Origin: a virus
Length of the DNA stretch: 26,404 bases
Direction: 5' to 3' (one strand)
Virus record (IMG/VR): IMGVR_UViG_3300025806_000184
Coordinates: 1 to 26,404 of that record
A program made the position numbers and the translations under genes. Below are positions 4,249 through 26,404 of the stretch, in pieces (position 1 is the stretch's first letter; each line of letters opens with the position of its first letter). Under the pieces are notes generated by a model that was not told where the DNA came from, ran no database searches, and saw nothing but the letters and a program-made list of their open reading frames with translations.

Positions 4249-4256
4249 TATAAATA
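4249..4256 (+). promoter_or_regulatory. T4-type late promoter motif TATAAATA upstream of hsp20
   Basis: An exact TATAAATA, the T4 late -10 consensus recognised with gp55/gp33 and the clamp, lies in the short intergenic space after regA. It would give a leader of about 55-60 nt before the hsp20 ATG. There is no -35-like hexamer at proper spacing. The match is short and the region is AT rich, so chance is possible. Confidence 0.5.
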
Positions 4257-4319: not shown

Positions 4320-4775
4320 ATGACTAATGCAAGACTACACGTACCACGTTCACTTTTTCTAGGATTCGAAGGTTTATTCGATGATCTGGAAAGGATTCAT
4401 TCGTCTGCTCGTAGTGGAGATAATTATCCGCCCCACAACGTCGTTAAGATTGATGAAGAAAATTTCTTGATCGAGCTAGCAGTTGCCGGCTTTACTGAAA
4501 ACGATTTAAACGTTGAAGTTAAAGAAGGTATACTAAAGATTGCCGGAGAGATCAAAGATCAAGGGAATAATGAATACGTTCACAAAGGCATTTCGTCACG
4601 CAGATTTGAGAAATCATTTAGAATTTCTGAATTTGTAGTAATCGACGATGCAGATCTAAGGAATGGCATACTTGTGGTGAAAGCCAGAGTTGAATTTCCA
4701 GAAGAGAAGCGTCCTAGGAAGATCAATATCGGATCTGCTGGGACCTCAACCGAAAAAACCTTTATCCAAGATTGA
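4320..4775 (+). CDS. hsp20: Hsp20 / alpha-crystallin small heat-shock protein
   Basis: A 151-residue IbpA-type small heat-shock protein. After a variable N-terminus (LFLGFEGLFDDLERI), the alpha-crystallin domain spans about residues 38-130: NVVKIDEENFLIELAVAGF, LNVEVKEGILKIAGE, then RRFEKSFRI and the diagnostic ADLRNGILVV (AxxxGIL motif). A C-terminal INI (I-x-I) tail, used to dock in oligomers, is present. These holdases are widespread in T4-like cyanophages and other marine myoviruses, where a role in assembly has been suggested. AGGAGG at 4309-4314 is a strong ribosome-binding site. Its own leader with a late promoter motif suggests late expression apart from the replication genes. Confidence 0.93.
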   Translation: MTNARLHVPRSLFLGFEGLFDDLERIHSSARSGDNYPPHNVVKIDEENFLIELAVAGFTENDLNVEVKEGILKIAGEIKDQGNNEYVHKGISSRRFEKSFRISEFVVIDDADLRNGILVVKARVEFPEEKRPRKINIGSAGTSTEKTFIQD

Positions 4776-5074: not shown

Positions 5075-7582
5075 ATGAAATTCTATACTAATGTAACACG
5101 CTTCGGCAATCAACTCCTCGTTCGTGGCTATGATGGCAATCGTCGATTCGCCGATAAGATTAAATATCAGCCTACTCTCTTTGTATCGACAAACAAACCA
5201 ACTGAATGGCAATCTCTATGTGGTAAACCCGTAGCTCCTGTTGTTCATGATTCTATGCGTGATGCTAAAGATTGGATTCAAATGAACAAAGACGTTGTTG
5301 GTCGAAACATCTTTGGCAATGATCGACATATCTCTACATATATTAATGATGCTTATCCTGGTCAAATCGAATTCGATCGTAACAAAATCAACGTAACTAC
5401 AATCGATATCGAAGTTGAATCAGATGATGGATTCCCTGAACCTGAATCAGCAGAAAAAGCAATCATATCAATCACGACTAAAAACAATATCGATGATACA
5501 TATTATGTGTGGGCTCTAGGTCATTATGACGTAGACAAGACACTTATGAAAGACCACCCTGTTATCTACAAACAGTTCATTAATGAAGCTCAGTTGCTTA
5601 TGGCATTCACTGACTTCTGGCGTGGTCATAATTGTCCTGATATCGTAACTGGTTGGAACTGCAGATTCTTTGATATTCCATATCTTGTTAATCGTACAGC
5701 CAAAGTTCTTGATGGTGAATTCGTTAAACGATACTCTCCGTGGGGTATGGTAGAAGAACGTGATGTCACTGTCATGGGTCGTACTCAACAGTCTTATGAA
5801 CTTAAAGGTATATCTATTATCGATTACCTCGAGCTCTTTAAGAAGTTTGGTTACTCTTACGGTCCACAAGAATCATATAAACTCGACCATATTGCTCACG
5901 TAGTTCTTGGTGAAAAGAAACTATCCTACGAAGAACATGGTTCATTGCATACTCTCTATCTAAATGATTATCAGAAGTTCATTGATTATAACATCAAAGA
6001 TGTAGAGTTGGTTGATCGATTCGAAGATAAGATGGGTCTTATTACGCTATGTCTAACGATGGCATACAAAGGTGGTGTTAACTACAACGATACTTTCGGT
6101 ACGACTGCTATATGGGATTCAATCATCTATCGTGAATTGTTCCAAAAGAAAGTTGCTGTTCCATTCAGTGAAGTCAAATTCAAATCACCGTATCCTGGTG
6201 GTTATGTTAAAGATCCACAAGTAGGTCTTCACAAATGGGTTGTAAGCTTCGATCTAAATTCGCTATACCCTTCTCTTATTATGCAGTACAATATGTCGCC
6301 TGAAACGATTATCGAAGGTGAACGATATAATGTTGATATCAAGTCGTTGCTTGATAAGAAGACTACATTCGAAGGTAGCGGCAAATCGATTGGTGGTAAT
6401 GGCCAAGTCTTTCGAACTGATAAGAAAGGTATCTTGCCTGATATCATCGATGGTATGTATACTGAACGTGTTGGAATCAAACGTCAAATGCTCGATGCGC
6501 AACAAGCGTTACAGAATGCTGATAAGACTGATAAGCAAACCATATACGGTATCGAGCGTGATATTGCTATTGCTGAAAACAGACAGATGTCTATTAAGAT
6601 TCTTCTAAACTCTCTTTATGGTGCACTCGGTAACAAGTACTTCAGATTCTTTGATCAACGTATTGCTGAAGCTATTACACTATCAGGTCAGTTATCGATC
6701 AAGTGGGCTGAGGTTGCTATTAATGATTACCTCAACAAAGTACTTAAAACAGATAAAGATTATGTCATTGCAATCGATACCGATTCGCTTTATGTAAACC
6801 TTGATCCATTGGTAGAAGCAGTCAAACCTGCTAATCCTGTAGACTTTCTTGATACTGTTGCACAAAAGAAACTCGAACCAGCTCTTACTGAAGCATATGC
6901 TAATCTATTCAATATGATGGGTGGCATCGAAAACAAGATGGTTATGGGTCGTGAAGTTATCGCAGACACTGGTATATGGACTGCTAAGAAACGTTACATC
7001 CTCAATGTGCATGACAACGAAGGCGTACGTTATGCAGAACCTAAGCTTAAGATCATGGGTATCGAAGCTATCAAATCTTCCACCCCCATGCCATGTCGTG
7101 ATGCTCTTAAATCTATTTTCAAGGTAATCATTGACGGCAGTGAAACAAAGACTCAAGCTGCTATTAAAGAGTTCAAGGACTACTTTGTAACACTACCTGC
7201 ACATGATATTGCATTCCCACGTGGTGTGTCTAAGGTCAATGAATACAAAGACAACGATACGATCTACAAGAAAGGTACTCCAATTCATGTTCGTGGTAGC
7301 TTGCTCTATAACAAACGTGTTAAGGATCTATCTCTTACGAAGAAGTATTCACCAATCAAGAACGGTGATAAGGTCAAATTCATCTATCTTCGTAAACCAA
7401 ACGTCATCAAGGAAAACGTTATATCATTCCCTGATTACTTACCATCTGAATTTGTAATTGATAAATATATTGACTATGACTTACAATTCCAGAAAACATT
7501 CCTTGATCCAATCGAACCAATCCTTGGTGCAATCGGTTGGTCTTCCGAAGAAAGAGCTTCTCTTGAAGACTTTTTTGGATAA
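5075..7582 (+). CDS. 43: family B DNA polymerase (gp43)
   Basis: A full-length 835-residue replicative polymerase with 3'-5' exonuclease, homologous to T4 gp43 (898 residues). The exonuclease I motif TIDIEVES puts D111/E113 almost exactly at T4 D112/E114. Exo II is TGWNCRFFDIPYL and Exo III is YNIKDVELVD. Polymerase motifs are DLNSLYPS (D393), KILLNSLYGALGN and DTDSLYV (D568, D570), followed by KKRY. The C-terminus, ERASLEDFFG, mirrors the T4 clamp-binding tail EKASLDFLFG, so interaction with gp45 is expected. I prefer ATG 5075 over an in-frame GTG at 5069 because AAAGGTG just upstream serves as ribosome-binding site. The gene is uninterrupted: no intron, intein or split, unlike some relatives. 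Confidence 0.98.
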   Translation: MKFYTNVTRFGNQLLVRGYDGNRRFADKIKYQPTLFVSTNKPTEWQSLCGKPVAPVVHDSMRDAKDWIQMNKDVVGRNIFGNDRHISTYINDAYPGQIEFDRNKINVTTIDIEVESDDGFPEPESAEKAIISITTKNNIDDTYYVWALGHYDVDKTLMKDHPVIYKQFINEAQLLMAFTDFWRGHNCPDIVTGWNCRFFDIPYLVNRTAKVLDGEFVKRYSPWGMVEERDVTVMGRTQQSYELKGISIIDYLELFKKFGYSYGPQESYKLDHIAHVVLGEKKLSYEEHGSLHTLYLNDYQKFIDYNIKDVELVDRFEDKMGLITLCLTMAYKGGVNYNDTFGTTAIWDSIIYRELFQKKVAVPFSEVKFKSPYPGGYVKDPQVGLHKWVVSFDLNSLYPSLIMQYNMSPETIIEGERYNVDIKSLLDKKTTFEGSGKSIGGNGQVFRTDKKGILPDIIDGMYTERVGIKRQMLDAQQALQNADKTDKQTIYGIERDIAIAENRQMSIKILLNSLYGALGNKYFRFFDQRIAEAITLSGQLSIKWAEVAINDYLNKVLKTDKDYVIAIDTDSLYVNLDPLVEAVKPANPVDFLDTVAQKKLEPALTEAYANLFNMMGGIENKMVMGREVIADTGIWTAKKRYILNVHDNEGVRYAEPKLKIMGIEAIKSSTPMPCRDALKSIFKVIIDGSETKTQAAIKEFKDYFVTLPAHDIAFPRGVSKVNEYKDNDTIYKKGTPIHVRGSLLYNKRVKDLSLTKKYSPIKNGDKVKFIYLRKPNVIKENVISFPDYLPSEFVIDKYIDYDLQFQKTFLDPIEPILGAIGWSSEERASLEDFFG

Positions 7583-11966: not shown

Positions 11967-12308
11967 ATGAAAGAATCTTTAAAAGTCCTGCAAGAATGTG
12001 CAGAATTACAAACTAAAAAATCTAATGATTATCAAAATCCTAACTCAAATATTCGGCAGGCTGATTACTACCCACGTGGCGTTGCATCGTTACTTGATAT
12101 TGTACATGCCAAAACGTTACGTATGTTCTCAGTTCTCGAAGCAATGGAAAATGATCCAAACTATAAACCAAACTTTGAATCACTTGAAGATTCAGCAAAA
12201 GATTTAATTAACTATGGTTCGTTTATTGCTGCTTATATTCGTGGTGGTATCGATGGCCAAGAATCAAATCGTGACTTTCTAAATCGGAGAATAAAGAATG
12301 ACGCTTGA
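11967..12308 (+). CDS. DUF1599 / Nmad1-like protein
   Basis: A 113-residue protein matching the DUF1599 pattern (nucleotide modification associated domain 1): KKSNDYQNPNSN, then VASLLDIVHAKTLRMFSVLE and SLEDSAKDLINYGSFIAAYI. In the family an early acidic pair and a D-x-x-x-D-L-x-N-Y helix recur. The name was proposed from genomic association with nucleotide and DNA-base modification genes, and here it indeed precedes a dCMP hydroxymethylase. A GAGG sequence precedes ATG 11967 and the gene overlaps the next by 11 bases. The molecular activity is not known; an all-alpha nucleotide pyrophosphatase-like or binding role is speculative. Confidence 0.6.
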   Translation: MKESLKVLQECAELQTKKSNDYQNPNSNIRQADYYPRGVASLLDIVHAKTLRMFSVLEAMENDPNYKPNFESLEDSAKDLINYGSFIAAYIRGGIDGQESNRDFLNRRIKNDA

Positions 12309-12963
12309 GATTGATCAAATTCGCACCTACTTTCGTGATGAACTAGATAATGAAAGATTTACTACAGATCGTAATGGTGGTAAAACAATTGAATTGATAG
12401 GTGCATCTTTTTATGCAGACGAGCCGGCTATCTTTGGTACTCCTAACCAGGATTACATCGATGCTGAGCTAGCATGGTATGAATCACAATCAACAAACAT
12501 TAATGATATCTATGTTGATAGGGATCCACCAAAGGCATGGGAAATGTCTGCTAATCGTCATGGTGAGATTAACTCCAATTATGGCCATCTTATTTTTAGC
12601 GATAAATACCATAACCAGTTCGATCAAGTTGTTCGTGAGCTTCGAAGAAATAAAGACTCTCGTCGTGCATCGATGGTATATCAACGGCCTTCAATATGGG
12701 TCGATTATAATGAACAGCAAAAGAATGACTTTATTTGTACTAATGCTGTAACATATTATATTCGTGATAACGAGTTACATTCGGTTGTTCAAATGCGATC
12801 AAACGATGTAATCTTCGGTTATCGTAATGACTATGCATGGCAGGAATATGTACTCTATGCATTAGCTGATGAACTAAGTGTCGACACTGGCACTATTCAT
12901 TGGCAAGTACAAAACTTACATGTATATGAGAGGCACTTTGATCTTGTCAAACAAATGGGATAA
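12298..12963 (+). CDS. 42: deoxycytidylate 5-hydroxymethylase (gp42-type dCMP hydroxymethylase)
   Basis: This 221-residue enzyme of the thymidylate synthase fold should convert dCMP to 5-hydroxymethyl-dCMP using methylenetetrahydrofolate. It follows T4 gp42 closely: KTIELIGASFYADEPAIFG, GEINSNYG, SRRASMVYQRPS, FICTNAVTYYIRDNELHS with catalytic C147 (T4 C148), MRSNDVIFGYRNDYAWQEYV and LHVYERHF. Position D178 in the RNDYAW motif corresponds to T4 D179, the residue that selects dCMP over dUMP, so it is not an ordinary thymidylate synthase. The C-terminus is about 25 residues shorter than in T4. GGAGA at 12286-12290 lies seven bases before the ATG, and the gene overlaps both neighbours. Confidence 0.93.
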   Translation: MTLEIDQIRTYFRDELDNERFTTDRNGGKTIELIGASFYADEPAIFGTPNQDYIDAELAWYESQSTNINDIYVDRDPPKAWEMSANRHGEINSNYGHLIFSDKYHNQFDQVVRELRRNKDSRRASMVYQRPSIWVDYNEQQKNDFICTNAVTYYIRDNELHSVVQMRSNDVIFGYRNDYAWQEYVLYALADELSVDTGTIHWQVQNLHVYERHFDLVKQMG

Positions 12964-13390
12964 ACGTTATATGGAACTGGCCAAGACAGTATCAACTTGG
13001 TCAAAGGATCCATCAAAGAAAGTTGGTGCGGTTGCTATTGGATCTAAAGGCCAAGTTTTGGCTCAAGGATTCAATGGCTTTCCGCGTGGTATCGACGATA
13101 CTGAAAAACGCTTAGTTGATAAAGACACTAAATATAAGTATGTCGTACACGCTGAAATGAATCTTATATATAATGCGACATTTAATGGAACGTCATTAAA
13201 TGGTTCGACAGTTTATGTGTATGGACTACCAGTTTGCTCCGAATGTGCAAAGGGTCTTATTCAGGTTGGTGTAAAACAAATCGTAATGAGTGAACACTCG
13301 ATGGAAGATGCACCTGAAAAGTGGATAGAATCTTGTGAGCTTTCGGTAGCCATGCTTAACGAAGCAGGAATACATTGGAAAACAGTATGA
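12944..13390 (+). CDS. cd: deoxycytidylate (dCMP) deaminase
   Basis: A zinc-dependent deaminase converting dCMP to dUMP, feeding thymidylate synthesis by ThyX. With a TTG start at 12944 the protein is 148 residues and begins MSNKWDKRYMELAKTVSTWS, the usual beginning of this family; GAGAGG at 12928-12933 is upstream. Longer in-frame starts (GTG 12878, ATG 12920 or 12926) would add a non-homologous tail read from gp42 in another frame and are less likely. Catalytic motifs are HAE (H69, E71) and PVCSEC (C98, C101), the C-x-x-C zinc ligands. KKVGAVAIG and GFNGFPRGIDD are also family-typical. It overlaps gp42 by 20 bases and the next gene by four. Confidence 0.93.
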   Translation: MSNKWDKRYMELAKTVSTWSKDPSKKVGAVAIGSKGQVLAQGFNGFPRGIDDTEKRLVDKDTKYKYVVHAEMNLIYNATFNGTSLNGSTVYVYGLPVCSECAKGLIQVGVKQIVMSEHSMEDAPEKWIESCELSVAMLNEAGIHWKTV

Positions 13391-14499
13391 AGAAAATATT
13401 AATTACGGGAATGAATAAGAATCAGACTACAAAGGATTTTTATTTAAGACAACAACTTAAGGTAGTACCATCTCATTATTCTCTTATAAGATGCTTAGAG
13501 GATATGGGTTATGAAGTAGAACAACGGTTAGTAAAGATTGGAGAAGATCTATCTGAATACCATCGTGTTATATGTTTCCTTGCATCTCCACGTCAAGCCC
13601 TCCAGTTAGCATTCTATAACGGTCTGTGGGCCATTCATGCTACACCAAAGGATAACCTTGTATTAGCATTTGATGATTGGCAGACAGAAGATATCTTTAA
13701 AGGTATTTTATCATGCAAAGATAAGGACTCATTGCTGAAAGAGTTTACGATCGGCCAAAACAAAATGTGTGATCCGGATATGTCATTCGAATTACTTGAA
13801 CCACACACTCAAACATTACTTGATGCTGTCAACTATATTGGAGAAAAGAAAGCACCAATGTTATTATCAGTCTTCATGGGTGGTGATCTAAGTAAACTTG
13901 TTGATTATCCTGAAGAACTCCTTGTTGGTTATAATCCTAATCCGTATCATCGTAATCGAGTGCCAGGTAATCGTGGTGATATTCATATCGATGAAATGGA
14001 ATACATGGAACAGATCATGATGCCTTCCGCAGAAGAAGATTCAGTAGCACCGGCCGATAAGCAAAGATGCTTTAACTTTGCATCATTAGTGCAAGGTAAA
14101 ACCAAGCGTTGGTTAAAACAACAGAATGCTGATTCATGGGATATTGAGTTCTTTGGTTCACGTAAAGAAAAGCAACGTCGTCTTGGTGAAGGTGATATGT
14201 GTAAAGTATATGCCGAACAATGGGGATGTTTAATGCCAGGATATAACCATGCCGGATCTGGTTGGTGGAGAGCAAGACCATTACAACTAGCAGATGCAGG
14301 ATCTATTCTTATTGGTGAATACGAAGAGATGATGTTACTATATAATAATGAACAGCTTGCGTCGTTAAAGGCAAGTGATATCGTTAATCTTTCGACAGAA
14401 GAATTATCAAGTCTAGCCAATAGACAAAAAGCAGCTCTACTTCAAGAGCATCCACTTGATAAAACACTACAACAAAAGGAACTGAGTGTTATACTATGA
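13387..14499 (+). CDS. GT-B glycosyltransferase resembling T4 DNA beta-glucosyltransferase
   Basis: A 370-residue protein that I read as a GT-B glycosyltransferase. The N-terminal domain begins MKKILITGMNKNQTT with SHYSLIRCLEDMGYEVEQ, YHRVICFLASP and NLVLAFDDWQTEDIF, paralleling T4 beta-glucosyltransferase (SSETIYLFKVISEMGLNVDI, YDRLIVVNSS, YYLFTDIRLPF). In the C-terminal domain, IEFFGSRKEKQ (253-263) is nearly T4's IEFFGNAREKQ. Then GSGWWRARPLQLADAG (R295, R297) and ILIGEYEEM match the UDP-binding region RVWETMASDAVMLIDEEF. The ATGA start overlaps dCMP deaminase. With dCMP hydroxymethylase upstream, transfer of a sugar to hydroxymethylcytosine in DNA is the natural reading; the sugar donor is not determined by sequence. 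Alternative: a glycan or other acceptor. Confidence 0.72.
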   Translation: MKKILITGMNKNQTTKDFYLRQQLKVVPSHYSLIRCLEDMGYEVEQRLVKIGEDLSEYHRVICFLASPRQALQLAFYNGLWAIHATPKDNLVLAFDDWQTEDIFKGILSCKDKDSLLKEFTIGQNKMCDPDMSFELLEPHTQTLLDAVNYIGEKKAPMLLSVFMGGDLSKLVDYPEELLVGYNPNPYHRNRVPGNRGDIHIDEMEYMEQIMMPSAEEDSVAPADKQRCFNFASLVQGKTKRWLKQQNADSWDIEFFGSRKEKQRRLGEGDMCKVYAEQWGCLMPGYNHAGSGWWRARPLQLADAGSILIGEYEEMMLLYNNEQLASLKASDIVNLSTEELSSLANRQKAALLQEHPLDKTLQQKELSVIL

Positions 14500-15500
14500 A
14501 GTCAATATTAATCGTTGGCGCTGGATTTTCTGGCGCCGTAATTGCAAGAGAGCTTGCAGAAGCTGGACATAGAGTTACAATCATTGATAAGCGGCATCAT
14601 ATTGGTGGAAATGCTTATGACTATGAGTGTAATGGTATTCGTATACACAAGTACGGTCCACATCTATTTCATACGAATAATAAAGAAGTAGTTGATTGGC
14701 TATCTCAATTTACTGAATGGGTTGATTATCAGCATAAAGTAAAAGCTCAATTAGATGATGGAACCTATGTTACTCTACCAGTCAATAAGGAAACAAAGGA
14801 AATCGTAGGTGAAGATAAAATCCTTGATACGTTCTTTAGACCATACACTCTCAAGATGTGGGGTAAGACTTTAGATGAACTTGATCCGTCTATTATTAAT
14901 CGTATTCCTACACGTGATGATGACAACGAGCTATACTTTCCAAATGACGAATATCAGATGATGCCTAAAGATGGTTACACTAAGATCTTTGAGAATATAT
15001 TTAAGCATAAGTATATTAAGGTCTTTACTGGTACGAAGTTTACTACTTCAATGGAAAAGAAGTATGATCATGTATTTAACTCTATGCCGATCGATCAATA
15101 CTTTAAATACAAACATGGTGAACTGCCATATCGTTCTATCAAGTTTCATAATGTAACATTGCCAATGGCTAAGGTTCTACCAACTGCTACTGTCAACTTC
15201 ACTCACGATGGTCCGTATACTCGAGTAACTGAGTGGAAGAATATTCCTAATCACGGCGATTTAAATACGCATACCGTTTTAACATACGAAGAGCCATGTG
15301 ATTATAAAGATAATAATAAAGAAAGATATTATCCAGTCAAAGATGTAGATGGTGTAAATAGAGAAACATATAAGAAATACAAAGAGATGGTTGATACTGA
15401 TCGCATGACGTTTATTGGTCGATGCGGAATGTATGTTTATGTTGATATGCATCAAGCAATATCTTCTGCTCTCGCAACGGCCAAGAGGTTTTTAAAATGA
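14496..15500 (+). CDS. glf: UDP-galactopyranose mutase
   Basis: A 334-residue flavoenzyme interconverting UDP-galactopyranose and UDP-galactofuranose. The FAD-binding start is ILIVGAGFSGAVIAREL (G8, G10, G13), then KRHHIGGNAYDYECNGIRIH and YGPHLFHTN, all close to E. coli Glf (EKRNHIGGNAYTEDCEGIQI, YGAHIFHTN). Later segments match as well: PYTLKMWGK, RIPTRDDDN, PKDGYTKIF, MPIDQYFKYKHGELPYRSIK, YTRVTEWK, RYYPV and FIGRCGMYVYVDMHQAIS. It is slightly shorter than the 367-residue bacterial enzyme because of a reduced middle domain. Start and stop overlap neighbours by four bases each. Glf genes usually serve bacterial surface glycans; in this operon a sugar donor for DNA glycosylation is plausible (inference). 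Confidence 0.94.
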   Translation: MKSILIVGAGFSGAVIARELAEAGHRVTIIDKRHHIGGNAYDYECNGIRIHKYGPHLFHTNNKEVVDWLSQFTEWVDYQHKVKAQLDDGTYVTLPVNKETKEIVGEDKILDTFFRPYTLKMWGKTLDELDPSIINRIPTRDDDNELYFPNDEYQMMPKDGYTKIFENIFKHKYIKVFTGTKFTTSMEKKYDHVFNSMPIDQYFKYKHGELPYRSIKFHNVTLPMAKVLPTATVNFTHDGPYTRVTEWKNIPNHGDLNTHTVLTYEEPCDYKDNNKERYYPVKDVDGVNRETYKKYKEMVDTDRMTFIGRCGMYVYVDMHQAISSALATAKRFLK

Positions 15501-16258
15501 GAATAGCACTTACAGGATCAAGAGGTTTTATTGGAAGTCATGTGATGAATCGACTTATGGCACTAGGTCATGAGATTGATGAATGGGATGAGAAAATTAA
15601 TAAGCCACTTAAACAATTTACTTGTATATCTAAGGGACAAACCGAAGATATAGATTATGTCATTCATTTAGCTGCTTATGCAGATGTAAGAGAAAGCATT
15701 AATGAGCCTCAAAAGTATTGGGATAATAATGTAACTCATACGACTGAGATTCAGAAGTTTTGTGATTTCTATGATATACCATTGCTATATGCTTCATCAT
15801 CTTGTATACATGATTGGCAACTATCACCATACGGAATGAGCAAGAAAGTAAATGAAGAAACAGCTCGCCTTAATCAAATTGGATTACGATTTACAACTGT
15901 TTATGGAGAAGGTGCAAGAGATGAAATGCTAATCGGCAGATTGATTGAAGGCAGAGTAAGTTATCTCACAAATCATATTCGTGATTTTGTACATGTTGAT
16001 GATGTAGTAGATGCAATTCTTCTATTGATTGAAAAAGAGATGGACGGTGTTACTGTTCTTAAGCCAGCTTACGATATTGGTACAGGTAATGGTGTAGTTG
16101 TTTCAGATCTAGGGCCAATTGCAGGATATGATATAGATATTAAACCAGGCGACGAATGTGAAGCTCATGATAATACTGCCGATATAACTGATATGCTAGC
16201 CTTAGGTTGGACACCAAAATATGATATCGAAGAATATATCAAGGATAAGACAAAATGA
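15497..16258 (+). CDS. NAD-dependent sugar-nucleotide epimerase/dehydratase
   Basis: A 253-residue extended short-chain dehydrogenase. Seen in order: TGSRGFIGSH (G7, G10, G13) for NAD binding, YVIHLAAYADV, LLYASSSC, the catalytic Y112-x-x-x-K116 (YGMSKK), TTVYGEGAR and RDFVHVDDVVDA. This is the signature of the UDP-glucose 4-epimerase (GalE) and related GDP/dTDP-sugar enzyme group. It is about 80 residues shorter than GalE, with a compact C-terminal substrate domain. Substrate cannot be decided by sequence, but a GalE-like reaction (UDP-glucose to UDP-galactose) would supply exactly the substrate of the adjacent mutase. The four-base overlaps with genes on both sides tie its expression to them. 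Confidence 0.85.
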   Translation: MRIALTGSRGFIGSHVMNRLMALGHEIDEWDEKINKPLKQFTCISKGQTEDIDYVIHLAAYADVRESINEPQKYWDNNVTHTTEIQKFCDFYDIPLLYASSSCIHDWQLSPYGMSKKVNEETARLNQIGLRFTTVYGEGARDEMLIGRLIEGRVSYLTNHIRDFVHVDDVVDAILLLIEKEMDGVTVLKPAYDIGTGNGVVVSDLGPIAGYDIDIKPGDECEAHDNTADITDMLALGWTPKYDIEEYIKDKTK

Positions 16259-17442
16259 AATATGCAAGTATAGTACCGCTGATTGGTGGAGAAACAATCG
16301 CAATGGAGAATGTGTTTGGGAAACGTCCTGAATATATTCTATCGTATAGTGCGTTTGCTAGCAATGATTCTCAGATTCTAAATCACTATAATAATGAAGT
16401 ACCCTATCATGTGATTGATGAAGGTAATGGCAGAACAGACTATGTTGATGTAGTCAATACTGTATGTCCATGTGCTGGTCTTTCTTCGTTATCTCCACAA
16501 GCTAATGCTAATAGCGCTACGAATGATTGGATGTCAGAATCAGCGAAATACGTACTTGGTAATATTAAACCTAAAGTATTCTGGGGAGAGAATGCTCCAC
16601 GACTTGCATCAAAAATGGGTGAACCAACAGTAAGAAAATTACGCAAGATTGCAGACGAGCATGGGTACACGTTTTCTATATATAAGACTAAGAGCATATT
16701 ACATGGTTTATCGCAAGTTCGAGACAGAACTTTCTACTTTTTCTGGAAAGGAACACAAGTGCCACTCCTTGGTTACGTCTCGAATCCGCACACTCGTATC
16801 GAAGATCATATCCGTTCAATTGAAAGACGTGATGATGATCCAATGAATATACTTACTAATGAAAGAATCCCATCGGAGAATCCTTACTATCGATACGTAC
16901 TTGAAGTAATCGAGGGTGGTATTACACATTCCGAATTTCAAGATAAGATCGAAAGAACTACAAACCCAATGGATGAAATAGAGAAGCATACTAATTACAG
17001 AGTTGTTGCTCAATGGATGCGCGAACAAGGTTATGACAATGAAGCCGCTAAGTGCGATCGTAAGTATCATAAGTTAAAAGCTGGTGGTAACATTATGCGT
17101 AAGACCACGGAAATACCAAAAGATTTTATTGGTGCTTTCGTTGGTCACTTTCCTACAAACCTATGTCACCCTGACGAAGACCGATATCTAACTGTACGGG
17201 AAGCAATGTCAATTATGAAGCTTCCAAATGATTTTAATCTAATTAATCCTAAGGCTAATCTAAATCATATATGTCAGAATGTTCCTGTTACAACTGCAGA
17301 ACATCCAGCTCGTATGATTAAGAAGTGGCTTGAAGGTAATGGAGTAGAATCAGTTGAAACGAAGTTCTTAGTAGAAGATAATAAGAAACGCACCTACGAT
17401 TATGAAAAAAACTGTGTACAATTAGATAGTTTTATGTTATAA
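16255..17442 (+). CDS. divergent C5-cytosine DNA methyltransferase homologue
   Basis: A 395-residue protein with most C5-methyltransferase motifs: PCAGLS with the presumed nucleophile C73 (motif IV), GENAP at 111-115 (motif VI), GLSQVRDRTFYFFW with Q154, R156, R158 (motif VIII), a long variable region from about 165 to 285, YLTVREAMSIMKLPNDF near 311-327 (motif IX) and CQNVPV at 340-345 (motif X). Motif I is unusual: VPLIGGETIAMENVFG replaces the canonical DLFAGxGG, although the GG is kept. The usual ENV reads ENA. This could be an active methyltransferase with altered cofactor pocket, a repurposed enzyme acting on hydroxymethylcytosine, or a binding protein. It is the last gene of the operon, and the next promoter's -10 overlaps its stop. 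Confidence 0.8.
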   Translation: MKYASIVPLIGGETIAMENVFGKRPEYILSYSAFASNDSQILNHYNNEVPYHVIDEGNGRTDYVDVVNTVCPCAGLSSLSPQANANSATNDWMSESAKYVLGNIKPKVFWGENAPRLASKMGEPTVRKLRKIADEHGYTFSIYKTKSILHGLSQVRDRTFYFFWKGTQVPLLGYVSNPHTRIEDHIRSIERRDDDPMNILTNERIPSENPYYRYVLEVIEGGITHSEFQDKIERTTNPMDEIEKHTNYRVVAQWMREQGYDNEAAKCDRKYHKLKAGGNIMRKTTEIPKDFIGAFVGHFPTNLCHPDEDRYLTVREAMSIMKLPNDFNLINPKANLNHICQNVPVTTAEHPARMIKKWLEGNGVESVETKFLVEDNKKRTYDYEKNCVQLDSFML

Positions 17443-23466: not shown

Positions 23467-23624
23467 TAGAACATTTTATTATATTCTCATTTTGTCTAAT
23501 TGGTGCAGCATGGACAGCATATCACCATGGGGTAAAGATTGGTGCAGAAATATTATTAGACATGTTAGAAGAGCAAAAAGTTGTAAGAGTACATGAAGAT
23601 GGAAGCGTAGAACCGTATAAATAG
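23460..23624 (+). CDS. small membrane-anchored protein, 54 residues
   Basis: ATG 23460 with AAGGA upstream. An N-terminal hydrophobic helix (FIIFSFCLIGAAWTAYHHG) is followed by a helical KIGAEILLDMLEEQKVV and VRVHEDGSVEPYK. The helix-then-YxxGxxxGAE layout is a type of small anchored protein I have seen in cyanophage-like genomes. Its stop codon region holds a T4-type late promoter motif. Function unknown. Confidence 0.65.
   Translation: MVVEHFIIFSFCLIGAAWTAYHHGVKIGAEILLDMLEEQKVVRVHEDGSVEPYK
23616..23623 (+). promoter_or_regulatory. T4-type late promoter motif TATAAATA before the virion-protein-like operon
   Basis: An exact TATAAATA overlaps the end of the preceding small gene, 31 bp upstream of the next ATG. 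There is no sigma70 -35 at the right spacing. The downstream genes look like internal head proteins, which fits late expression. A nearby TATAAT (23626-23631) also lacks a -35. Confidence 0.6.
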
Positions 23625-23654: not shown

Positions 23655-25040
23655 ATGCTAAACTTTTCAGGTTTCCAACCACTTTCAGAAGCTGTTAGAA
23701 TGACACCTGCTCAACTATTAAAACCTAATGGTCAGACAGGGGAAGCTCGTATTGATATTCTTCTTCGTCTTATTAAATCAAATCAGCCCTTAGAGCTTGC
23801 TAAAGGTGGTACATTCCTTGTTACTGATATAGAACATGCTGTTGCTGGTATTGAAACATGGAAAAAAGATAAGTCTGAAACTAAAAAGCCTATTCCTCTT
23901 AAAGGTGATAATGATACATTCATTACAACATCCGATCTAGGTAAATCAAAAGTCTTTGGTGGCGGGGGTGGAGCCGGTGGTGGTACTCTCAATACTAAAA
24001 ATACAGAATCACATCAATGCGTAATGCTTCAAGCTATGCTAGATCATGGTGTTCAATCACAAGATTACTTTACTGATAAGATTATGAAAGATGCTTATAA
24101 GAAAGTATTTGTTGATGCATCTCTAGAAGAAGTAATGAGTGTAAGTGATGATTGGATTACCTCATCATATGAATCTGCAGTATTACTATTTAAGAATGGA
24201 TACATTCAAAAAGGTATGACATTCCACCGTGGCGATAAAGTCATGGCTGAAATTTACGCTAAGAAAACCGTTGCATTTAAGAACAACGGTTTTTCTCCAT
24301 TAAAGGATGACAAATGGAACCCAGGCGATATCTGGGCGGTAGCAAAAGGATTCAATGTTAAGAAAGAACTTGGTGATGATAGTGTTAAAACATTAAATGA
24401 AGATATTCTACAACACTTTGTACAAAAGCGTTTAGTTGGTATATCACTTAAGAAAGTGAAAAAGAAAGCCAAGCATATCGAAATGAATGTCGAAAGACCA
24501 CCAGATGTTGATGATCATAAAGTAAAACAAATTCTATTACAAGGTGCTAAGCGCGGTGACTTCTGGTCAACAAAGGGTGGAGCAATTGTATATGATGCAG
24601 GTGCTCTTCTTTTAAAAGATAATAGTGCTGGTGGTACTGTTAAGGCAGAGCTTAAAGGTAAGACTGCAAGAGGCGGTGGTGCAGGTTGGGGAATACTTAT
24701 AGATGCTGGTAAACAAGTATTCCGTAAAACTGTTGTATCAGATAAATTTAAAGCAGATGTTTTTGGTGTTGCTAAAAAGATAGAAAAAGGTGATAAGAAA
24801 TCAATTGAAAAATTCTATAAGATGTATAATCACTTTTATGACGATTCGATCGAAGATTTTTCAGCTAATCTAAAGAAGAAAGATAAGTTTTGGATTTCTG
24901 CTAAGTACGGTGTAATAAGTATATGCTACATGGTTTCAATTAATAGTGGACCAAAAGCAAATCGATTTATTACTAAAATTGTAAACTATGCTGGATCAAA
25001 GGCAGAAGATTCAAGCGCATACATTAAGGTATATGAATAA
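23655..25040 (+). CDS. conserved virion-associated-type protein with capsid-targeting-like N-terminus
   Basis: A 461-residue protein I recognise only as a conserved T4-like marine phage hypothetical. Its N-terminus, MLNFSGFQPLSEA, contains LSE-A at 10-13, fitting the (L/I)xE-(A/G/S) cleavage rule of the T4 prohead protease gp21. A glycine run (VFGGGGGAGGG) lies at residues 100-110 and separates an N-terminal region from a larger domain with MTFHRGDKVMAE, KDDKWNPGDIWAVAKGF, VGISLKKVKKKAK and AELKGKTARGGGAGWG. The last has an E-x-K that might belong to a nuclease-like fold (weak inference). GAGG precedes the ATG. A late promoter motif upstream and CTS-like neighbours suggest packaging into the head. 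Confidence 0.65.
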   Translation: MLNFSGFQPLSEAVRMTPAQLLKPNGQTGEARIDILLRLIKSNQPLELAKGGTFLVTDIEHAVAGIETWKKDKSETKKPIPLKGDNDTFITTSDLGKSKVFGGGGGAGGGTLNTKNTESHQCVMLQAMLDHGVQSQDYFTDKIMKDAYKKVFVDASLEEVMSVSDDWITSSYESAVLLFKNGYIQKGMTFHRGDKVMAEIYAKKTVAFKNNGFSPLKDDKWNPGDIWAVAKGFNVKKELGDDSVKTLNEDILQHFVQKRLVGISLKKVKKKAKHIEMNVERPPDVDDHKVKQILLQGAKRGDFWSTKGGAIVYDAGALLLKDNSAGGTVKAELKGKTARGGGAGWGILIDAGKQVFRKTVVSDKFKADVFGVAKKIEKGDKKSIEKFYKMYNHFYDDSIEDFSANLKKKDKFWISAKYGVISICYMVSINSGPKANRFITKIVNYAGSKAEDSSAYIKVYE

Positions 25041-25333
25041 TGAATACTTTCAAAGAATATATTAGTGAAGCTAAGATTAAATGGAAGAAAGTTGCAGATG
25101 GATATGGTCCTGGCAATAAGAAAGTATTTAAACATGTAACTTCAGACGGTAAGTTTGAGATTCGTTTATCCGGCATGGACTCAATGAAGTTTAATAAAGA
25201 CGGTAGTACAAAAGTGTTACCTACGATATTTGATAAAAGCGGTCATACACCAAGACATCCGATTATAGGATATAAAAATGTCGGATTAGCTAAGAAAGAA
25301 GTTCAACGTTGGAGAGATGATCATGGAATTTAA
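25040..25333 (+). CDS. small putative internal head protein
   Basis: A 97-residue basic protein starting MNTFKEYISEAK. This resembles the capsid-targeting sequence of T4 internal proteins (T4 IPIII: MKTYQEFIAEA), with ISE-A at 8-11 matching the gp21 protease site. The body (KWKKVADGYGPGNKKVFKHV, KFEIRLSGMD, GYKNVGLAKKEVQRW) looks like a small basic alpha/beta domain. The start overlaps the previous stop by one base and the gene overlaps the next by 11 bases. Function after packaging is unknown; injection with the DNA is possible. Confidence 0.65.
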   Translation: MNTFKEYISEAKIKWKKVADGYGPGNKKVFKHVTSDGKFEIRLSGMDSMKFNKDGSTKVLPTIFDKSGHTPRHPIIGYKNVGLAKKEVQRWRDDHGI

Positions 25334-25712
25334 AGAGATAGATACATTCTTAGAGTACTACGACGAAAAGAGTAACTTTGGTTTATATGAAGGAACTCGT
25401 GTTCCATTGGAAAGTCCAATGATTGAAGCATCTGAACCTGAATTAAACTCACCAAAGCGTAGCTCTGGTAAAAAGAAATATGTTGTTTACGTAAAAAACC
25501 CAAAGACTGGTAATGTAAAGAAAATCGAGTTTGGTGATGAGAAAGGTGGACTTACATCGAAGATTAATGATAGAGATGCTGCAAGAAACTTTGCAGCTCG
25601 TCATAACTGTGATACTAAAACTGATAAAACAAAAGCAGGCTATTGGGCATGTCGTTTACCAAAGTATGCAAGTAATTTAGGATTAAAGGGCGGTGGAAGT
25701 TATTTCTGGTAA
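25323..25712 (+). CDS. DUF5872-like small virion-type protein
   Basis: A 129-residue protein. GGAG at 25311-25314 favours ATG 25323 over ATG 25317. The N-terminal part (MEFKEIDTFLEYYDEK) has LYE-G at 21-24, a possible prohead protease site. The basic C-terminal domain has GKKKYVVYVKNPKTGNVKKI, EFGDEKGGLTSKINDRDAAR, NFAARHNCD, YWACRLPKYASN and GGGSYFW. It fits the KKxxVYVKxPxTGxVKxxxFGD ... ARHNCD ... YWxCR pattern that I recall as DUF5872, found in T4-like phages alone or joined to head genes. Two conserved cysteines may bind a metal. Likely a capsid or internal protein; not proven. Confidence 0.65.
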   Translation: MEFKEIDTFLEYYDEKSNFGLYEGTRVPLESPMIEASEPELNSPKRSSGKKKYVVYVKNPKTGNVKKIEFGDEKGGLTSKINDRDAARNFAARHNCDTKTDKTKAGYWACRLPKYASNLGLKGGGSYFW

Positions 25713-25953
25713 TCCATACGTTGATGATGGTAATATAAGAACGTTCGATATTAAACAACCGGCTACAGATTATGTGTGGCACCGAGATGAAGAAGATCGA
25801 ACAATCAAATGTATAGAAGGCGAAGGTTGGCAATTACAAATAGAAGATTGCTTACCTTTCCTTTTAAAGTTAAATCAAGAAGTTTGTATACCTAAAATGG
25901 TGTACCATCGTCTTATAAAAGGTTATAATACTCTAAAGGTAGAAATTAAATGA
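25693..25953 (+). CDS. cupin-like small protein (GTG start)
   Basis: An 86-residue protein. Segments VWHRDEEDRTIKCIEGEGWQ, LQIEDCLPFLLKLNQEVCIP and MVYHRLIKGYNTLKVEI follow the cupin pattern of T4-like marine phages: HRDxEDRxIxVLEGEGWxxQxxxxLPxLLxxGxxxxIxxxxYHRxIKG. No ATG lies before the conserved region; GTG 25693, inside the preceding gene, is the most upstream start, with AGGA about ten bases upstream. The stop overlaps the next start. The two His may bind a metal; substrate unknown. Unlike its neighbours it has no capsid-targeting-like N-terminus. Confidence 0.7.
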   Translation: MEVISGNPYVDDGNIRTFDIKQPATDYVWHRDEEDRTIKCIEGEGWQLQIEDCLPFLLKLNQEVCIPKMVYHRLIKGYNTLKVEIK

Positions 25954-26404
25954 GATCATTAAAAGGTTATTTATCGGAAGCAGCGGGTAAGAACACACAT
26001 ATGACACATCTCGAAGATTTGATTCTCGATGGTGGTGTCAAAGGAGCTCGTCAAGCTATTAATGCATTACGTTCTTTACGTGATATGTTATCTGGTAGTG
26101 CTAAAAGTGCAACTGATGTGACTGTTAAATGGGACGGAGCTCCTGCTGTATTTGCTGGTGAAGATCCAATTACTGGTGAGTTCTTTGTTGCAAAGAAAGG
26201 TGTATTCAATGCCAACCCTAAAGTATATAAGAGCCATGCAGACATTGATGCAGACACCTCTGGTGATCTCTCTAAGAAGTTAAAGATGGCCTTTGATAAT
26301 CTAAAGGATGTAGGTATTAAAGGTGTTATTCAAGGTGACTTCATGTATGATAAGTCGGACCTTGGATCAGAAACAATTGATGGTGTAAAATATACTACGT
26401 TCCA
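25950..26404 (+). CDS. putative capsid-targeted nucleotidyltransferase/ligase (3' end outside window)
   Basis: The frame starts at ATG 25950, overlapping the cupin stop, and runs off the window after 151 codons. It begins MRSLKGYLSEAAG, a capsid-targeting-like peptide with LSE-A at 8-11. Then come LEDLILDGGVKGARQAINAL, VKWDGAPAVFAG with a KxDG motif (K60, D62, G63), EFFVAKKGVFNANPKVY and IKGVIQGDFMYDKSDL. In the ATP/NAD ligase, RNA ligase and capping enzyme superfamily, KxDG is motif I with a covalently nucleotidylated lysine, and the GxIQGDFM segment fits motif IV-like D/E positions. It is a conserved protein in cyanophages and pelagiphages (I recall the name DUF6267). Function is unproven; the missing C-terminus prevents checking of motif V. 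Confidence 0.65.
   Translation, partial: MRSLKGYLSEAAGKNTHMTHLEDLILDGGVKGARQAINALRSLRDMLSGSAKSATDVTVKWDGAPAVFAGEDPITGEFFVAKKGVFNANPKVYKSHADIDADTSGDLSKKLKMAFDNLKDVGIKGVIQGDFMYDKSDLGSETIDGVKYTTF

Follow-up and report, generated by a model that had tools for sequence, protein, structure and literature searches.

In phage T4, Alt is a head-packaged ADP-ribosyltransferase, which is trimmed by the prohead protease, also at its C-terminus, and injected, and IPI, IPIII and gp24 are known substrates of the same protease. The internal proteins IPI-III are encoded by late genes, are non-homologous and basic in their mature form, and have the leader alone in common, namely a short propeptide at the N-terminus, which is hydrophobic at positions 4 and 7 and has the cleavage sequence (L/I)xE-(A/G/S). 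In IPIII, targeting has been mapped to residues 4 and 7 and processing to residues 8 and 10 (PMC9026906), and Ip1-3 are inhibitors of type IV restriction enzymes (PMC12373910). Here, the end of an IMG/VR fragment of 26,404 bases from a marine T4-like phage (the whole of this stretch being referred to as the window) is described, in which five closely spaced plus-strand genes, P1-P5, run from 23655 to the window end. These genes very probably form the start of an operon of tagged head cargo, which would be made late, packed in the head, cut there by the prohead protease and then injected.

The locus resembles that of IPI-III in its leader, in the non-homologous bodies that have this leader alone in common, in the basic mature proteins and in its late-type genes, with the cognate prohead protease found in relatives. 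It differs in that its cargo families are unrelated to the internal proteins, in its variable spacing (E at 8-14, about 23 in P3) and in that one late operon encodes four tagged proteins, with several more in the nearest relative (L082), predicted enzymes included. As with Alt, some of the cargo would consist of packaged, trimmed and injected enzymes, but there is no homology to Alt and the enzyme types are other. The head ejection proteins of phiKZ and SPN3US are comparable as regards the propeptides cut by the prohead protease and the many proteins packed with the DNA, but their propeptides are mostly longer than 100 residues and their cleavage motif is AxE.

The first-pass annotation had proposed that three of the five proteins begin with a peptide similar to that of IPIII. 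The peptides are present in P1 (MLNFSGFQPLSEA at 23655), P2 (MNTFKEYISEA at 25040) and P5 (MRSLKGYLSEA at 25950), and the comparison is correct, IPIII beginning with MKTYQEFIAEA, as does IPI. P2 reproduces the T4 register exactly (F4, Y7, I8, E10) and P5 has L4, Y7, L8 and E10, so that, with P1, three proteins carry the targeting residues at 4 and 7 in register, P3 being a longer variant. The LYE-G that had also been pointed out at residues 21-24 of the protein starting at 25323 (P3) is there as well, and G-[LIK]-[YF]-E is retained in 43/50 distinct relatives; P3 is therefore counted in the set, and four of the five proteins are tagged. The cleavage-type sequences (L/I)xE-(A/G/S) of the window are LSE-A, ISE-A, LSE-A and LYE-G, candidate sites as read from the sequence. 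A strict pattern, built from the residues mapped in T4 IPIII, matches 3/41 window genes (P 1e-4, the background being internal positions of the same proteins), is found mostly at protein N-termini across ten T4-like genomes and, in T4, picks out IPI, IPIII and gp24.

The predicted tag is retained while the protein bodies diverge and the spacing varies. Among 55 distinct relatives of P1, the bodies of which go down to about 45% identity, residue 3 or 4 is hydrophobic in 53, and 53 have a hydrophobic-x-E-[AGSEL] site, with the position of the E ranging from 8 to 14. The tag is found in 9/10 homologues of P2, for which annotated phage genomes contain no relative, and 134/150 homologues of P5 match the pattern; a C48C1 protein with a body resembling P3 starts with MKKFKQYIDEG. 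P4, which is tagged in 0/70 homologues, provides the internal negative control of the operon. An exact number of tagged families was discarded, the single-linkage count having merged families, apparently via shared domains.

The late promoter motif that had been noticed just upstream of the operon, TATAAATA, occurs only 3 times in the whole window. It lies within 100 nucleotides upstream of P1 in 60/65 distinct relatives and upstream of the four downstream genes (P2-P5) in 0/207 cases and, because of this difference, it is regarded as a conserved feature of the operon head and not as a chance overlap with a stop codon. The operon is thus predicted to be transcribed late. Another copy, at 4249, is found 71 nucleotides before a gene that looks Hsp20-like from its sequence (4320-4775), which suggests late expression of the latter.

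Virion mass spectrometry (MS) has been published for four cyanophages, S-SM1 (PMC3037559), S-SZBM1 (PMC9146016), S-CREM2 (PMC10665884) and S-SCSM1 (PMC9602691). A cytidylyltransferase is reported in the virions of all four, and its starts are MKKFSAFLNEA (S-SM1), MRFRQFIIEA (S-SZBM1), MKNFSSFLTEA (S-CREM2) and MKSFLQFLKEA (S-SCSM1). In S-CREM2 a peptide in the T4 register is found in 5/52 virion proteins versus 1/167 others (P 0.003), the five including a SAM hydrolase, a kinase and the cytidylyltransferase; the loose pattern does not separate virion from other proteins of this phage (P 0.53), the T4-register pattern alone doing so. The DUF6267 homologues (the family of P5) of S-SZBM1 and S-CREM2 are untagged and missing from both virion lists. 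The S-SCSM1 record gives proteins 89-93 the label of virion proteins; their genes follow that of the helicase and precede gp61/nrdA. One of these proteins, SSCSM1_90, is homologous to P1 (profile E 2e-31; phrog_1462), so that a P1 homologue has been detected in the virion of the one MS-analysed phage that has one. The Cas9-like virion protein gp12 of S-CREM2 (L250 7704-10313) contains a targeting-like FASFMAEA at residues 19-26. The C-terminal RTFKEFLEYIE of the virion protein S-SCSM1_93 (L277 7727-7936) resembles the tag.

As to the protease, the first-pass annotation had suggested locating its gene outside the window: a PF03420 prohead protease is indeed encoded in 12/14 records, including all of the long relatives (G007, G001, G002, G003, G004 and G005), but is missing from the window record itself, as well as from one 67-kb fragment. 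The (I/L)SE-(A/G) site of the tag recurs in the N-terminal part of the major capsid protein of several relatives, as ISE-A (G001), ISE-G (G007) and LSE-A (Melnitz), with LGE-A in DLP6; in the same part, the T4 major capsid protein has LTE-A at 63-66, where it is known to be cut. In 9/9 genomes, the scaffold encoded next to the protease takes rank 1 to 5 among 50-128 proteins by density of such sites. G007 (5799-6035) and C48C1 (14434-14628) have, adjacent to the prohead protease, a small gene with the start MLTFAELREA and VRTFKELREA, respectively, which possibly encodes a gp67/gp68-type core protein that bears this tag.

High isoelectric points (pI) of the tagged bodies represent a property that is independent of the motif. 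Without the peptide, pI is 9.4-10.0 for the tagged proteins (10.0 for P2; the P5 value is that of the L082 homologue), 9.6-9.7 for the T4 internal proteins and 5.1 for the untagged P4; in this calculation P3 was cut one residue early and a 77-amino-acid protein was started late, which leaves the conclusion unchanged. Across five relatives, pI exceeds 9 in 15/19 tagged proteins versus 153/723 others (P 1e-5). The tag is of low confidence and lies ahead of the fold in both predicted structures, the AlphaFold2 model of P1 having a pLDDT (predicted local distance difference test) score of 85 with residues 1-10 below 50, and the model of P5 having residues 1-17 unstructured. No fold match to the P1 model at E <1 was found in the PDB, and such a confident model may represent a new fold; assignment of P1 as a PD-(D/E)xK nuclease, on the basis of a DKWNPGDIW...ISLK motif, was unsupported.

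By the T4 scheme, the tagged proteins would be made late in infection, each would be docked on the prohead core by the hydrophobic residues 4 and 7 of its N-terminal targeting sequence, and closure of the shell would lock them inside. A T4-type prohead protease would then cut after (L/I)xE, yielding a basic mature protein, which would remain with the DNA and most likely enter the next host with it.

Packaging of the tagged proteins into the head is strongly supported, and the head-packaged set put forward by the first-pass annotation gains from the T4 residues in register, the conservation of the tag, the late box, the protease and capsid-protein sites of relatives, the basic bodies and cyanophage virion MS, P1 homologue included. 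In the window phage, targeting and cleavage are predicted from the peptides, and injection into the host and an early function there would follow by analogy with T4. With the tag on four of the five proteins and similarly tagged proteins in the virions of relatives, the former are therefore probably carried into the host with the DNA. Several points weigh against this picture. No cleavage products have been seen so far, the window, as a 26 kb fragment, contains no protease and no head genes, and the strict capsid-protein site is absent at the corresponding place in G002, G003, C48C1 and P-SSM7. SSCSM1_90 is without a clear tag though in the virion, so that the tag is not the sole route in, and its detection therefore supports the presence of the family in particles, not the role of the tag. 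Furthermore, the authors of the S-CREM2 (PMC10665884) and S-SCSM1 (PMC9602691) studies caution that some detections in CsCl-purified material may be contaminants, and the S-SCSM1 record labels a translational repressor, too, as a virion protein. If all cyanophage detections were lysate contaminants, the peptide would be an inherited, functionless N-terminus, but this is highly improbable given that the tagged cytidylyltransferase is found in four phages, that untagged DUF6267 neighbours are unlisted in the two phages mentioned and that unrelated bodies share the tag, which is retained despite spacing changes.

A more serious alternative, though still an unlikely one, is that the tagged proteins are packed in the prohead but act there, in the core, in DNA condensation or in head maturation, with no delivery to the host. 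T4 core proteins also bear such cleavage sites, the protease-adjacent small gene in the head cluster of G007 and C48C1 has its tag-like start, and basic bodies would suit DNA binding; on the other hand, enzymes account for several of the tagged families (cytidylyltransferase, P-loop kinase, ligase-like DUF6267), the families vary among phages, unlike core proteins, and the tagged internal proteins of T4 are injected (PMC12373910). The peptide being short, and packaging in the window phage being deduced from sequence, it might instead direct proteins elsewhere, e.g. to where replication takes place or to the membrane, its likeness to the protease site being incidental; this is made improbable, if slightly less so than general contamination, by the presence of the tag on proteins detected in the virions of S-CREM2, S-SZBM1, S-SM1 and S-SCSM1, by its coincidence with the mapped residues of T4 and by the tripeptide that it shares with the likely capsid-protein cut site of several relatives. 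Chance resemblance of ordinary N-termini, which a short and fairly permissive motif (in its loose version it fits about 2.6% of internal positions) might have explained, is already refuted by the strict matches in 3 of the final 5 window genes (P about 1e-7) and by conservation of the motif in more than 100 relatives.

The mechanism of the proposed head cargo is that of T4, with a cargo (RNA-ligase-like DUF6267, NMNAT-like enzyme, kinase) and a marine breadth that appear to be unreported. For cyanophages and other marine T4-like phages, searches of open-access full text turned up no report of capsid-targeting sequences, a review of T4 work offering speculation of a general kind. The cyanophage cytidylyltransferase/NMNAT-like protein (T4-GC190) is tagged and occupies the same kind of place in several cyanophages, after a gp41-type helicase and before gp61 and nrdA; in the nearest relatives, a related gene follows shortly after DUF6267, the window ending before it. 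In the accessible parts of the cyanophage papers, a capsid-targeting tag goes unmentioned and the choice between cargo and contaminant is left open. What is new is the cargo, the operon and the link of the tag to published virion lists. The tag offers an answer to the doubt, expressed in two of these papers, on whether the virion NMNAT/cytidylyltransferase is a contaminant, which existing MS data could confirm, and provides a sequence rule for which unknown genes of marine T4-like phages encode particle cargo. T4 capsid targeting, known for three small inhibitors and Alt, is also extended to a late operon of ocean phages, the proteins of which are mostly uncharacterised and partly enzymatic.

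With respect to function, P5 belongs to DUF6267 (Pfam PF19782, E 4e-46, 158.5 bits versus a cut-off of 27), in which the ligase-like residues K-x-D-G, E-G-x-V and K-x-V-D-R are invariant across 10 diverse members. Beyond its own family, its model gives weak named matches in BFVD, RNA ligases among them (best E 0.025, probability 0.89), nothing significant in the PDB (top match DNA ligase IV, E 1.1) and, by hhalign, no match to T4 RNA ligase 2 (RnlB); P5 thus bears some resemblance to an RNA-ligase-type nucleotidyltransferase. Within the family, the fold matches BFVD A0A0M6VVW4, an S-PM2 protein named cytidyltransferase, and phrog_455 spans both the DUF6267 and cytidyltransferase domains, which suggests a fusion and a functional link of the two operon neighbours. 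In searches of Pfam, PHROGs and PADLOC, none of the bodies showed homology to a known internal or anti-defence protein, the PADLOC matches being weak and judged to be chance. With enzymatic-looking cargo (ligase-like P5, NMNAT-like cytidylyltransferase and the P-loop kinase of L082), the reading that is therefore favoured, with low confidence, over inhibition of restriction enzymes is that this cargo acts on nucleotides, NAD or RNA ends as infection begins; it is offered as a hypothesis, not as a result. As T4 Ip1-3 inhibit type IV restriction enzymes, an anti-defence role is still plausible, and by this analogy the operon proteins may counteract host defences. It seems rather doubtful that DUF6267, the NMNAT-like cytidylyltransferase and the polynucleotide-kinase-like P-loop enzyme form an injected, ready-made kit for NAD and RNA ends, which would reverse the depletion of NAD or the cleavage of RNA by host defences ahead of any phage gene expression.

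The features of the operon, its continuation in L082 and the predicted cut forms of cyanophage virion proteins are collected in the table. The P5 stretch of the window is 98% identical to L082, in which the P5 homologue has 413 amino acids and is followed by several further tagged genes.

Table. Features of the tagged operon and of related loci, with predicted products of cleavage.
Feature	Position	Strand	Description
Late-promoter box TATAAATA	23616..23623	+	upstream of P1; overlaps stop codon of preceding gene
P1	23655..25040	+	461 amino acids, phrog_1462 (E 4e-38); targeting peptide MLNFSGFQPLSE-A
P1 propeptide	23655..23690	+	12 residues, F4 and F7, LSE-A; predicted cut after E12
P2	25040..25333	+	97 amino acids, basic; peptide MNTFKEYISE-A at 25040-25069
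P3	25323..25712	+	129 amino acids (131 with start 25317), phrog_7595; putative propeptide ends GLYE-G
P3 predicted cut	after E23 (25391)	+	LYE-G = residues 21-24; propeptide longer than in P1/P2/P5
P4	25693..25953	+	86 amino acids, GTG start, no tag, acidic
P5	25950..26404	+	DUF6267, truncated by window end; peptide MRSLKGYLSE-A at 25950-25979
L082 gene	after P5		very basic 116-amino-acid protein; starts MKSFKEFEEA
L082 gene	next		502-amino-acid cytidylyltransferase-DUF5824 protein; RFSEYLSEE
L082 gene	next		136-amino-acid protein
L082 gene	next		222-amino-acid P-loop kinase (Zeta_toxin/AAA_33); MINFKEHTNLMEG
L082 gene	next		small protein; MKTFAEYIKEG
S-SCSM1_91			predicted cut form starts AAESGASVQAK; intact form EAAESGASVQAK
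S-SZBM1_140			predicted cut form starts AVAAAAK; intact form QFIIEAVAAAAK
S-CREM2 gp154			predicted cut form starts ADEK...; intact form NFSSFLTEADEK

Genes for DNA polymerase, a UvsX-like recombinase and a gp41-type helicase are found upstream of the operon. The stretch 12298-17442, which lies between the first two of them, contains genes that, as judged from the sequence, resemble those for thymidylate synthase/hydroxymethylase, deaminase, UDP-galactopyranose mutase, epimerase and cytosine methyltransferase.

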